A stretch of DNA of 64,000 nucleotides from an uncultured Prevotellaceae bacterium (GTDB lineage: Bacteria; Bacteroidota; Bacteroidia; Bacteroidales; Bacteroidaceae). The notes under the pieces are model-generated. The model did no database searches, was not told the origin of the DNA, and saw nothing but the letters and a program-made list of their open reading frames with translations. Positions 57,821 through 61,766 of the stretch are shown here, one piece after another (position 1 is the first letter of the stretch; each line of letters starts with the position of its first letter). The stretch is taken from positions 62,001-126,000 of the forward strand of contig CACZBS010000001.1 in the NCBI GenBank assembly GCA_902779455.1, given 5' to 3'. The position numbers were made by a program, and so were the translations under genes.

Positions 57821-58663
57821 TTACAGGTATCGTTTCAATTCTTCGCCCTCAACTCCTGCATACAACTCCAGCAGGCTCTTGGCTGGGCTTGACTGAATCT
57901 TGGGAATCAGGACTTCCTCGACTTGGAAGAAGCCTACCTCGGCCCTCATGTGTATCTCAATCTTCAAGGGGCGTTCATGCCCCTGTCCTATCTTAACCGC
58001 TTCGATAGAGTTTGCTGAATACTTGTGGATATCGCCTTCAGCCGGTTTTGACGGTATTTCCAGAGGAATGCGGGCACGGCCTTTTGTCATGTCGCAACCG
58101 TCTGCAATCAGAATAATGCCAGCCTCAACGGAATGGATGGGGTGTGTGGCCATGTGTCCGATGATGCCTTCCATCGCGATGGAGCGGATGATGGTCCGCC
58201 TTAGGATATCGTCGTCTTCTGGAAGGAGCTTCGACAACACCTTCTCGATAATAGAATAGGATATGATGCCAGAATACAGTTCATGCCCTTTCCGCCCTAT
58301 TGTCATTCCGCTGTCATGAAGAAGTGCGGCCAGCATCACCGCCGCTACGCTGTCAGCAAACGTCCCGATGTTTTCCTTTTCCAGGCTTGTCTGTATTCCC
58401 GCCGAATGTAATATGCTTAGCATCTTCAAGGCATTGCGGCATACGGTCTTCATGTGAACAGGCCCGTGGTCATTCAACCCCAGCCGGACGATTGACACCA
58501 TGTTGGCATAATCTTGTATGGCGCCTATTTCCTGGTCATTCCGAAGATTGTTCCACAGTCTTATAGGCAAGTCATCGCCAGATGTCTGCTCTTTTACAAT
58601 CTTTGTAACCAAATCAGTTATTTTCTCTTCGACTAGTATTTCTTTCGGTGATTTTGAATCCAT
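57821..58663 (-). CDS. HD-domain phosphohydrolase of an archaeal-like type
   Basis: A cytosolic HD-superfamily protein of about 280 residues. The metal site is read from NDHGPVHMKTV, VMLAALLHDSGMTIGRKGHE and later GHMATHPIHSVEAGIILIADGCDM. It also has KGRARIP and HKYSANSIEAVKIGQGHERP, a combination resembling HD proteins common in archaea. Base composition is lower in GC than the neighbours, which suggests transfer. ATG 58663 was chosen because the upstream frame start coincides with the -7 box at 58727-58720. Substrate unknown. Confidence 0.75.
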   Translation of the reverse strand: MDSKSPKEILVEEKITDLVTKIVKEQTSGDDLPIRLWNNLRNDQEIGAIQDYANMVSIVRLGLNDHGPVHMKTVCRNALKMLSILHSAGIQTSLEKENIGTFADSVAAVMLAALLHDSGMTIGRKGHELYSGIISYSIIEKVLSKLLPEDDDILRRTIIRSIAMEGIIGHMATHPIHSVEAGIILIADGCDMTKGRARIPLEIPSKPAEGDIHKYSANSIEAVKIGQGHERPLKIEIHMRAEVGFFQVEEVLIPKIQSSPAKSLLELYAGVEGEELKRYL

Positions 58664-58719
58664 ATTTTCTGCTTTTTCTTTATTCGTATGTGAATGAAGC
58701 CAATCATCCTTTTGGGGCA

Positions 58720-58727
58720 CAAAGATA
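58720..58727 (-). promoter_or_regulatory. -7 box for the HD-domain gene
   Basis: The minus strand reads TATCTTTG, 57 bases before ATG 58663. Confidence 0.65.
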
Positions 58728-58843
58728 GTGTTTTTATCTGAGAAGTCGGAATAATGCGTATTAAAATGTTATGAAATACTCCAAAATGCACCTTTTTCCG
58801 TGCTTCATGAACTATCTCGAGGAGTCGGACAGGCTTACGAATA

Positions 58844-58913
58844 AAACTCTCAGCACGTCGTGACGGCATGAAACCACGTCGTGACGGCATGCCGTCATGA
58901 CGTGACGTAAGTT
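58844..58913 (+). repeat. Dispersed CACGTCGTGACGGCATG element, copy 2
   Basis: Tandem units (CACGTCGTGACGGCATG twice, joined by AAAC) bounded by AAACTCTC and CGTAAGTT. Those bounding words match the reverse complement of copy 1 at 26279-26369. The stretch 58914-59081 that follows is A/T-rich with no feature I can name. Confidence 0.75.
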
Positions 58914-59081
58914 AACGGCAACGGCCTATATTCGTTTTTTTCATCAAAGCCAAGCAAAAATGTTCTTTCCCTATGTTTTCATCTCACTAATTTGTCAATC
59001 TGAGGCTAAGTATAGAAGACAGGCAACATCATAGAAATACAAAAAAAGTCTCTTTTATTTGGTGTTTCACTAGATTTACAC

Positions 59082-59089
59082 TATCTTTG
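59082..59089 (+). promoter_or_regulatory. -7 box for the structured leader and the Omp28-like gene
   Basis: TATCTTTG, with transcription expected near 59095, leaves a leader of about 300 nt before the ATG at 59394. That is far longer than other leaders in the window. Confidence 0.7.
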
Positions 59090-59197
59090 CACCGACGAAC
59101 CACAGAAGTATAACCCTTTAACCCCCAAGACCGAATGCCTATGGGCTAAGATTGAGAAGATAAAAACATATACGTTGAAGCGTCCGCTTTGATTCTT

Positions 59198-59347
59198 GTT
59201 CTTGAAAATCGCCAATTTACAAGAATGTCTCAAGAGTAAAGTAGATGGTTCACGCCTGATGGCGTGAGCTTTTACCCGTTTAGAGACATAAGGTGTTTGG
59301 CGATACCTCAAGAACGTAAGCGAAGTAATTGCTCACGTTTTTCTTTT
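59198..59347 (+). promoter_or_regulatory. Structured leader RNA, candidate riboswitch or attenuator
   Basis: Three nested helices can be drawn. P1: GTTCTTGA (59198-59205) with TCAAGAAC (59308-59315), then after a small internal loop ATCGCCA (59208-59214) with TGGCGAT (59298-59304). P2: ATGTCTC (59225-59231) with GAGACAT (59283-59289). P3: TTCACGCC (59249-59256) with GGCGTGAG (59261-59268). Directly after P1, ACGTAAGC (59314-59321) pairs with GCTCACGT (59331-59338), one mismatch, followed by TTTTCTTTT: an intrinsic-terminator shape. CGTGAGC of P3 can alternatively pair with GCTCACG of the terminator. The ligand is unknown and no known riboswitch consensus was recognised. Confidence 0.6.
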
Positions 59348-59393
59348 GTGCTTATCCAAATCGAACAAACAACAATAAACAATTTAAATCTTT

Positions 59394-61766
59394 ATGAAAA
59401 AGCAACTACTTTCCTTAATGCTGCTACTGCCGATGGTGGTGAATGCAGCTCAATTAGCAAAAGGTTCGCCTTCATTTAACTATTATTTGACAATGCCTGA
59501 GATTCAAAACTCAGATGGAGTGATGGGCTCTGATGGCACAAATGCGTGGTGGGGGTATGTGCAGGACAACAATTCCCGCTTTGGTATGGGAAACGGTAAT
59601 ACTGGTACCTTTAGCCAGTGTGTCATGATCTCGAAGAACAATTCGGCTGTTGTGGGAAAAAACATCAAGGCCGTGCGCTTCTATCTGCGTAGCACCAGCG
59701 ACATCAAGGATGTCAAGGTGTGGATGGCTACCAGCCTGCCCGCAAATGTCGACAGGGCTAACGTCCACGTGCAGAATGTCGACATCAGTACCCTTGTGGG
59801 TGGCGACGAGGGCGATACCAACAACGGCATGCTCAACGAGGTGGAGTTTACCACGCCTTACACCATGACTACTCACGACCTCTATGTGGGCTATACCTTC
59901 ACCGTCACCTCCACGGCAGCCAACTCAGGGAAGTATCCTATCGTGCTGGCCCACGAGGCGGCTGCGGCAGGAAGCCTTTACCTTAAGCTGGGAACCGATG
60001 CTTGGGAGAATGGCGAGAGCTTCGGACCGCTGGCCTTGAAGGTGCTGCTCGAGGGCGACTTCGAAGAGAATGCCGTACAGCCTAGTGCTCCTGGCGATGT
60101 GTATGCCGCTTTGGGCAGCACGACGACCTTCAGCTTGCCGTTGATCAGTCTGGGATCAGCAGCTATCAGTAGCATCGACTACACTATCACTGCTGCCGGC
60201 AATGTTGGTGCAGAGACACATCTCGACCTGCCGCAGCCATTGTCGGGCTTTGGCGTGTATGGTGCTGTTTCCATTCCGATGGATGCTGATGCAGTGGTCG
60301 GAACGGCTGAGCGCACGCTGACTATCACAAAGGTCAACGGACAGGCAAACGAAGCTGCTGCCAATAGCGTTACCTTCAGCCTGCTGACACTGTCGAAGAT
60401 CGTGACGCGTGGTATTGCTGTAGAAGAGTACACTGGAACAGGATGCCCTTGGTGCCCGCGTGGACTGGTCGGTATGGAGAAGATGCGTAAGGAGTTTGGC
60501 GATGCTTTCGTGGGTATTGCCATCCATAACTACAATAATACCGACCCCATGTACATCTCTGCCTACGACCAGGTGAGCTTCAGCGGCGCTCCTTCGTGCC
60601 GTATTAATCGCGGACCGCAGATGGATCCGTATTCTGGCAGTGGCATTGATATCTTCGACGACTTCAGGGCTGCTCAGGCCGTTCCTGCAAAAGCAGGACT
60701 TACTGTCAGCGGAGAGTGGAATGCCGACTCTACACAGGTTATTGCTAAGGCTGAGATCGCCCCTGTCATCGACAGCGAATATGCCATCGAGTACGTCCTC
60801 ATAGCCGATGGCCTTACGGGCACTACAAACGCTTGGAAGCAGACGAACAACTATGCATCCAATTCCGCTTCACAGCTACCCCCGGACATGCAGTTCCTCG
60901 CTTCAGTAGGATCAAGCTATTTCACCGTCTTCAACGATGTGGCCATCGCTGTGGCAAAGCAGACCCAGACAACGGCTCCTGGCAAGCTGACGGCAGACAA
61001 TGCTGTCCTCAATACCTACACCATCAGCATGCCGACCAACAAGACGCTGCTGAAAGCCGTAAAAAATGGAAAGGTAGCAGTAGTAGCCCTACTCATCGAC
61101 AAGAGCAACAATATGATTGCCAATGCTGCTAAATATTACCTGCTTCCTGTACCCTCTAAATGTGCTACTCCCACCATTGCGTTTGTCGATGGAAGGCTAG
61201 AGTTTGATTGTGAAACTGAGGGGGTAGAGTATGTGACTAGCATCAGCCTACCCGATGCTGATCTACAGAATAATAATCTGATGGAACTCTTGTCTTGCTA
61301 TAACATCAGTGTGTATGCCAAAAAGGATGGCTATTTTGATTCTGATGTGGTGTCAATGACCATTGATCTCAACCGACTGAAAGGTGACGTGAATCAAGAT
61401 GGGATTGTCAGCATCGCTGATGCTACTGCTATCGTTGACATCATCCTGAATGCCGAAACAGCTATCGACCCAGTACCGAAGTTCTATTATTCCGTTGGAA
61501 CGGAAGAAGTGACGGAATCTAATTACACTACTATAAATAATGCTCAATTCAAGTATTCATTGGCTGAGATACCCGAGACGCTGGATTTGAGAACTGTCAG
61601 CCAGCAGCGGGCCGTTATCCTGCTACCCGAAGGATGTATGCCCATCATCAGGGGCGCATCAGGCTTAGTAGGAACCACGAGTGTCTCGCTTGGTAATGGA
61701 TATATGGTGTACACTACGACCAGTGCCATTAATGGCGCTGAATGCACCTGCACGATTCTGAAATAG
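59394..61766 (+). CDS. Large exported Omp28-like protein with CxxC motif and dockerin-like repeat
   Basis: A 790-residue secreted protein. The signal peptide is MKKQLLSLMLLLPMVVNA. Residues 25-215 form a beta-rich domain (YVGYTFTVTSTAANSG). A middle domain opens with VEEYTGTGCPWCPRG, a thioredoxin-like CxxC at Cys351 and Cys354, as in Omp28-related proteins. Near residue 664 lies one dockerin/EF-hand-like calcium repeat (GDVNQDGIVSIADATAIVDI). The C-terminal 90 residues are beta-rich, without a clear secretion-sorting motif. Base composition is lower in GC than average here. The gene is preceded by the 300-nt structured leader. Its role may be in surface or secreted disulfide chemistry, which is inference. 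Confidence 0.8.
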   Translation: MKKQLLSLMLLLPMVVNAAQLAKGSPSFNYYLTMPEIQNSDGVMGSDGTNAWWGYVQDNNSRFGMGNGNTGTFSQCVMISKNNSAVVGKNIKAVRFYLRSTSDIKDVKVWMATSLPANVDRANVHVQNVDISTLVGGDEGDTNNGMLNEVEFTTPYTMTTHDLYVGYTFTVTSTAANSGKYPIVLAHEAAAAGSLYLKLGTDAWENGESFGPLALKVLLEGDFEENAVQPSAPGDVYAALGSTTTFSLPLISLGSAAISSIDYTITAAGNVGAETHLDLPQPLSGFGVYGAVSIPMDADAVVGTAERTLTITKVNGQANEAAANSVTFSLLTLSKIVTRGIAVEEYTGTGCPWCPRGLVGMEKMRKEFGDAFVGIAIHNYNNTDPMYISAYDQVSFSGAPSCRINRGPQMDPYSGSGIDIFDDFRAAQAVPAKAGLTVSGEWNADSTQVIAKAEIAPVIDSEYAIEYVLIADGLTGTTNAWKQTNNYASNSASQLPPDMQFLASVGSSYFTVFNDVAIAVAKQTQTTAPGKLTADNAVLNTYTISMPTNKTLLKAVKNGKVAVVALLIDKSNNMIANAAKYYLLPVPSKCATPTIAFVDGRLEFDCETEGVEYVTSISLPDADLQNNNLMELLSCYNISVYAKKDGYFDSDVVSMTIDLNRLKGDVNQDGIVSIADATAIVDIILNAETAIDPVPKFYYSVGTEEVTESNYTTINNAQFKYSLAEIPETLDLRTVSQQRAVILLPEGCMPIIRGASGLVGTTSVSLGNGYMVYTTTSAINGAECTCTILK

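Follow-up and report, generated by a model that had tools for sequence, protein, structure and literature searches.

What does the long, structured leader in front of a putative secreted-protein gene in an uncultured Prevotellaceae bacterium do, and what might it respond to? The leader occupies positions 59082-59393 of the window, as we call the whole 64-kb stretch of DNA that was analysed. An initial annotation had described it as a set of nested helices followed by a terminator-like hairpin, and had proposed control by premature termination. The leader is real and conserved. It belongs to an unnamed family in which two competing shapes probably decide whether the gene behind is transcribed. 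The reading that we prefer, with a probability of about 0.6, is that of a cis-acting transcription attenuator for which a very short open reading frame (mini-ORF), where present, would provide a translational input. This reading draws on covarying folds that exclude each other, on a last strand (strand b) with more than one partner, on a U run, on the early stops of the mini-ORF and on the signal-peptide genes that follow.

The leader, its copies and the genes behind them

The elements named in the initial annotation, namely the promoter box, the nested helices, the hairpin, the T tract and the ATG at 59394, are all present in the letters. The present analysis adds the mini-ORF, a small hairpin (H0) and a near partner (X) for the switching strand, together with a loop-bulge contact and a wide distribution.

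59082-59089, + strand: promoter box TATCTTTG (TAnnTTTG), letters read directly
59141-59149, + strand: mini-ORF ATG GGC TAA (Met-Gly-stop), letters read; start-stop kept in the main set
59178-59189, + strand: small hairpin H0 (AAGC GTCC GCTT); loop covaries with the bulge beside the apical hairpin in copies
59193-59198, + strand: strand 1 (TTCTTG), possible partner 1' at 59231-59236; by eye and from prefix folds
59198-59205, + strand: switching strand 2 (GTTCTTGA), partners near X or far 2'; pairing permutations and prefix folds
59208-59215, + strand: strand 3 (ATCGCCAA), partner 3' at 59297-59304; covariation on alignments
59220-59225, + strand: X (CAAGAA), near partner of strand 2; pairing permutations
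59225-59231, + strand: strand 4, partner 4' at 59283-59289; covariation, with a one-base overlap with X in the window
59248-59269, + strand: apical hairpin P3 (GTTCACGCC / GGCGTGAGC), 3' strand a' at 59263-59269; covariation
59283-59289, + strand: strand 4' (GAGACAT); covariation
59292-59307, + strand: hairpin III, GGT...ACC, with strand 3' (59297-59304) in its loop; paired changes between GGU/ACC and GGC/GCC
59308-59315, + strand: strand 2' (TCAAGAAC), far partner of strand 2; pairing permutations
59315-59337, + strand: terminator-like hairpin, b' CGTAAGC (59315-59321) and b GCTCACG (59331-59337); pairing of b with a' also possible
59338-59347, + strand: T tract (TTTTTCTTTT), U-rich in main-set copies too
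59394-61766, + strand: ORF of 790 aa from the ATG at 59394, with a signal-peptide-like start and an Omp28-like region

The description as a structured 5' leader is borne out by the folding of the 312-nt stretch at -78.9 kcal/mol (z -4.09), with none of 100 shuffles equally stable. A simple terminator scan of 58500-60500 found none, probably because the stem is interrupted by a mismatch. The protein had been called Omp28/dockerin; the first part survives as a sub-threshold match (28.3 bits, cut-off 34.9), and dockerin was not among the matches listed at E<=0.001. In the gap 5' of the leader (58855-58910), direct and inverted repeats around ACGTCGTGACGGCAT can be seen by eye and are possibly a terminator or a binding site. 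Divergent from the leader, the minus strand at 57821-58720 encodes a 299-aa protein with no Pfam match at E<=0.001.

The initial annotation had recognised no known riboswitch class, and no known RNA class was found over the leader at the gathering or at relaxed Rfam thresholds. Rfam 15 gave no match in the 64-kb window at the gathering threshold, a relaxed search of 58900-59500 gave six matches up to E 10, all far below threshold, and nine sub-threshold matches at E<=0.5 in 13 loci included none over the leader element. A DNA search matched 55 of 201 family genomes at E<=0.001, and a plasmid DNA search with the window leader gave no match. Two covariance models were used, R1 from 30 copies and the broader R2 from 79. 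R1 matched 237 of 399 family genomes at E<=1e-4 and, at E<=1e-10, 36 of 295 genomes of an order sample and 4 of 296 of a phylum sample; R2 matched 58 of 295 genomes of a class sample at E<=1e-7, the source genome being included in each of these counts. The source genome holds two strong copies, both found by each model; the second (L002) lies on another contig and precedes another signal-peptide-like ORF. Twelve chosen genomes held between 0 and 25 copies at E<=1e-6, and the copy counts of the many-genome searches, with 7-10 candidates scored each, are lower bounds. A pattern scan of named genomes found at least 119 stretches; the 80 listed come mostly from rumen or gut Prevotella, Bacteroidaceae and other Bacteroidales by title, and the phylum name used for the leader family rests on the record titles of these listed stretches.

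The leader also occurs on viral contigs, where the core letters occur in 39 stretches and R2 has 19 matches at E<=0.001. Ten proteins from three such contigs revealed clear phage genes (tail or tape measure, endolysin) on two and an integrase on the third. Copies may lie close together, with three in 8 kb in L142 and two within a few kilobases in each of L132, L254 and L266; the clustered copies in L142 and L254 stand in opposite orientations.

The counts that follow refer to three sets. The main set of 129 copies, mostly from Bacteroidaceae and Prevotella by record title with a few from other families, comprises 83 matches less one that is cut off (L179) and 86 less 10 at the same place and 20 weaker ones counted apart, nine further duplicates having been removed by script; L016, whose 3' end is replaced, was excluded from alignment A1. 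In the 20 weaker matches, which come from other families, the strands still follow one another in the same order. A second set holds 65 distant copies. The viral-contig set went from 19 matches to 17 on removal of two duplicates and to 15 on removal of L276, which is close to L302, and of L280; since it was chosen by exact 3' core letters, those letters are fixed by choice. In the interval from 30 to 130 nt upstream of the core, the TAnnTTTG pattern, which we take to be the Bacteroidota -7 box, occurs in 69 of 127 copies of the main set, where shuffles give 5.2; the corresponding figures are 45 of 64 against 4.6 for the distant copies and 15 of 15 against 1.2 for those on viral contigs. The distance from the end of the box to the mini-ORF is 23-33 nt in 37 of the 58 copies carrying both, and 51 nt in the window.

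A sense ORF starts within 400 nt of 120 of the 129 main-set copies, none being found for the other nine, and 101 of these 120 are signal-peptide-like by a crude script. With a floor of 120 aa, the same crude test counts 94 of 108, where other ORFs, taken as controls from L101-L180 only, give 99 of 314, and so repeated occurrence before secreted-protein genes, which had been proposed as a check, is indeed seen. The corresponding figures are 38 of 61 behind distant copies and 11 of 15 behind viral-contig copies. HTH-like and LytTR-like proteins, identified by reading of the sequences, are exceptions among the downstream genes. In one phage contig (L292) the leader stands 5' of an endonuclease-like gene, and a reverse transcriptase, a tail-like gene and an endolysin are also present. 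In L009 and L018, judged by eye, the core is followed by the start of a signal-peptide gene and then by a stop after 18 and 26 codons respectively, as if leader and signal peptide were left over from a lost or exchanged gene.

Two mutually exclusive folds and the 3' end

Comparison of the copies shows two predicted folds in the conserved leader which both covary and exclude each other. In the long nested fold 93.7% of cells are paired across 79 copies, 38 of 46 pairs have changed on both sides, and the covariation score is 0.458 against 0.154 for shuffles and 0.04-0.07 for slid structures, on an alignment fitted to the same fold. A plain MAFFT alignment of 30 copies gave 23 double-changed pairs of 47 and a score of 0.286 against 0.135, for a fold that had itself been drawn by eye on these 30 sequences. 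The compensatory changes for which the initial annotation had advised a search are thus present. The exclusivity it had suggested is also found, residing in one strand with a near or a far partner, both pairings of which covary. In the 125 of 129 main-set copies that were parsed, strand 2 pairs with its own 2' at -11.66 kcal/mol, against -3.85 for swapped partners, and with its own X at -4.74 against -3.03 (z -11.2); none of 2000 permutations was as good in either case, a count which overstates independence since the copies are related. The control pairings X-2' (z -1.1, 281 of 2000 permutations as good) and 2-4' (z -0.4, 659 of 2000) gave no such signal. Neither R1 nor R2 contains the pairing of strand 2 with X. 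Prefix folds of the window copy keep X paired until 59291 and have it replaced by 2' at 59316.

Other parts of the fold vary in concert. In hairpin III, GGU/ACC and GGC/GCC vary together across copies, and the H0 loop and the bulge beside the apical hairpin are among the top-scoring covarying columns. A UCC loop is accompanied by a GGA bulge in 34 of 35 parsed copies and a UUA loop by UGA or UAA in 32 of 38, so that the match (UCC-GGA, UUA-UAA/UGA) holds in 66 of 77 parsed copies overall.

As in intrinsic terminators and attenuators, a stem and then a U run stand upstream of the gene, and a competing antiterminator fold is present, the a'-b measures on alignment A2 being mixed. Strand b was found in 122 of 125 copies and a' in 116; in the 122 main-set copies the ten letters after strand b include 8.5 U on average. 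The initial annotation had pointed out that CGTGAGC (59263-59269) could pair with GCTCACG (59331-59337). The two are exact complements, and strand b is fully complementary to a', with G-U allowed, in 115 of 116 parsed copies. Against the local b', it is paired at six of seven places, the middle always missing, in 111 of 122 copies. This local hairpin, the terminator of the initial annotation, covaries in the main set (z -4.8, equalled by none of 2000 permutations). It does not do so in the distant and viral-contig sets, where 177 and 178 of 2000 permutations were as good, and as a general terminator it was dropped. Pairing of the apical 3' half with the segment before the U run gave z -8.1 in the main set (127 of 129 copies), -11.8 in the distant set (60 of 65) and -8.2 in the viral-contig set (15). 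In the distant and viral-contig copies the supported partner of strand b is thus the 3' half of the apical hairpin, a predicted pairing that lies outside the covariance models.

On A2, the a'-b fold has 89.1% of cells paired and 30 double-changed cells against 8.4 in shuffles; three of five measures beat every shuffle, and double-change pairs (217 of 500) and pair types (117 of 500) were not above shuffles. In the window copy the long hairpin (-73.1 kcal/mol) and the local hairpin (-72.6) are nearly equal. The a'-b fold (-62.9) falls short of the long hairpin by 10 kcal/mol, which counts against the attenuator reading; more than one stem is thus a candidate for ending transcription in this copy. 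Beyond the U run, a loose pattern detects a GGACU-like element (c) in 60 of 141 copies, the window copy not among them, 8 of 149 having been lost from this survey for want of a U run. Its pairing with strand b is stronger for own than for swapped partners (-7.27 against -6.22 kcal/mol, 0 of 2000 permutations as good). In some distant copies element c seemingly forms part of the loop of a hairpin close to the start codon.

The mini-ORF and a proposed mechanism

The mini-ORF was counted from an anchor which lies 49-68 nt upstream of the core in the main set. It is present in 110 of the 128 copies with enough upstream sequence, one copy being too short, and 101 of the 110 have an ATG. Every one of these 101 reaches an in-frame stop after 0 (35), 1 (52), 2 (12) or 3 (2) further codons; an equally early stop is found in the +1 frame of 8 and the +2 frame of 40. 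There are 36 different mini-ORF strings, with TAA (63), TAG (26) and TGA (12) as stops. Their lengths vary by whole codons and their letters change, features which point to translation rather than a fixed motif. In seven other anchored copies ATA stands in place of the ATG and an in-frame stop is reached after at most two further codons, and two have TTG or ATC with no early stop. The 18 copies without a good anchor were left uncounted, and some of them show a mini-ORF by eye. The source genome's second copy has ATC for ATG and no short frame, which counts against the preferred reading.

Amongst the distant copies an ATG stands at the corresponding place in 35 of 65 and is absent from 30, a further point against that reading. 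Its frames are all short (up to four further codons) in 26 copies, some are short in four and none in five, giving 37 short ATGs of 47 compared with 26.4 of 65.6 in shuffles. The 15 viral-contig copies have no consistent mini-ORF and five copies from one family (f124) have no ATG at its place; on these grounds the mini-ORF is a putative module on top of the attenuator. The idea of a universal mini-ORF was dropped on the evidence of the distant copies, the viral-contig copies and L002.

A mechanism can be proposed from these features. As the RNA emerges, hairpin I, formed by strand 2 and X, would fold first. Strand 2', on emerging, would displace X to give one long hairpin in which a' is locked up too, favouring antitermination. 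Were strand b to capture a terminator partner, either the apical 3' half or, in the main set, also the local b', RNA polymerase would stop at the U run; were it to fail, the gene would be read through. The mini-ORF of 101 of 128 main-set copies would let a ribosome begin and almost immediately finish translation some 50 nt before the switch, and where the mini-ORF is kept this event would be the likeliest main input to the decision, or its setting. Copies without one would need another input or a fixed setting. The window mini-ORF ends 43 nt before the switch, and the distance to strand 2 is too great for a ribosome on the mini-ORF to cover the switch, which counts against the attenuator reading. 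It is tempting to go further and to envisage a Bacteroidota-wide class of attenuators, shared with phages, which sets accessory surface and secreted proteins and whose input in Bacteroidales is starting and stopping at a mini-ORF of 1-4 codons rather than a peptide or a ligand; this wider proposal is tentative and, taken whole, more doubtful than not.

Alternative readings and known systems

A ligand riboswitch, in which the core of strands 3 and 3' with hairpin III would be the aptamer and the refolding the expression platform, would be consistent with the complex fold, the kept core, the loop-bulge contact, the exclusive folds and the U run. It is nevertheless unlikely, as no common pathway emerges from the genes behind the leader. 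Among 148 of 166 proteins compared with Pfam, BspA-type leucine-rich repeats (LRR_5) account for 29, dockerin for 9, outer-membrane barrels for 7 and the T9SS sorting tail for 3, within 102 families of which the best 25 were inspected, and the endonuclease-like gene of the phage contig fits no better. Furthermore, the core helix 3-3' is double-changed in some distant copies, which is unexpected for a ligand pocket.

The shared kind of downstream gene, encoding surface and secreted proteins, would also suit a leader bound by a hypothetical protein or antitermination factor, such as a NusG paralogue or a secretion-stress regulator, that sets readthrough. A GACAT motif upstream of H0, which 109 of the 128 main-set copies carry where shuffles would give 4.1, could be a target. 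The motif is, however, rare elsewhere (in 14 of the 65 distant copies and in 4 of the 15 from viral contigs), a rarity also counted against the attenuator reading, and we give the protein-binding reading little credence.

Distinctly improbable, too, is a 5' mRNA stabiliser or translation aid, with a ribosome on the mini-ORF or a 5' hairpin guarding the end and the U run not a terminator. Several viral-contig copies without a mini-ORF do have such a hairpin: -3 kcal/mol or lower is reached by 9 of 14 (mean z -1.42), compared with 29 of 54 mini-ORF copies (mean z 0.27). Element c, moreover, pairs with strand b in the readthrough RNA of part of the copies. Yet the average over seven distant copies that lack a mini-ORF gives no sign of a 5' hairpin (mean z -0.01), and the stabiliser reading does not explain why two covarying folds that exclude each other should lead into a U run (8.5 of ten letters). 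The expectation of a 5' hairpin in every copy without a mini-ORF failed on the same seven copies. Lastly, a mobile repeat or chance hairpin with no regulatory role is hardly credible, for although copies are multiple (up to 25 per genome at E<=1e-6) and signal-peptide starts end early in L009 and L018, pairs are kept whilst sequences differ, a sense ORF starts within 400 nt in 120 of 129 and promoter boxes are enriched.

The attenuator-type leader favoured here has clear relatives. In riboswitches and other leaders with intrinsic-terminator expression platforms, folds that exclude one another and then a U run lie 5' of the gene. The present family shares this position, the exclusive folds and the U run, and differs in its unrelated target genes, in the mini-ORF that most main-set copies carry 5' of the fold and in having no ligand assigned. 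The leader-peptide attenuators of the trp and his type open with a short ORF, after which come competing hairpins and a terminator, an order which is repeated here up to a terminator-like end. In the present family, by contrast, the ORF comprises 1-4 codons including the ATG, with no single kept sense codon and no regulatory codons overlapping the competing hairpins, and in the window it ends well before the switch (43 nt). In our judgement, RNA-based control in Bacteroidota is poorly known. A leader that occurs in up to 25 copies in one genome, mostly 5' of surface or secreted proteins, provides an RNA model with which the long 5' leaders of Prevotella and its relatives could be annotated, and a clean test case of whether a ribosome that merely starts and stops can steer transcription.

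No report of the family was recognised in the open-licence literature, including the available portions of PMC8040213, PMC9841429, PMC11955535, PMC7366714 and PMC9723704, and a literature search for the core letters returned, among the matches listed, only work on a mammalian gene. The Flavo-1 motif and the unnamed structured 5' regions described in the accessible part of the Flavobacterium psychrophilum study (PMC9723704) are likewise structured Bacteroidota RNAs to which no role is assigned; Flavo-1 had no match in the window stretch or the 13 loci scanned. Copies of the leader could stand unnamed among the candidates of PMC8040213 or the 64 structured 5' regions of PMC9723704. We regard the leader as a putative new class of a known kind, the RNA attenuator-type leader, unusual for its mini-ORF. 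Its closest parallel in this respect lies in start-stop ORFs, described from ribosome profiling in Campylobacter and reported in E. coli in the portion of PMC11955535 available. These have the same AUG followed by an immediate or near-immediate stop; here the predicted arrangement recurs in many copies of a single RNA family, where it goes with a structured leader.
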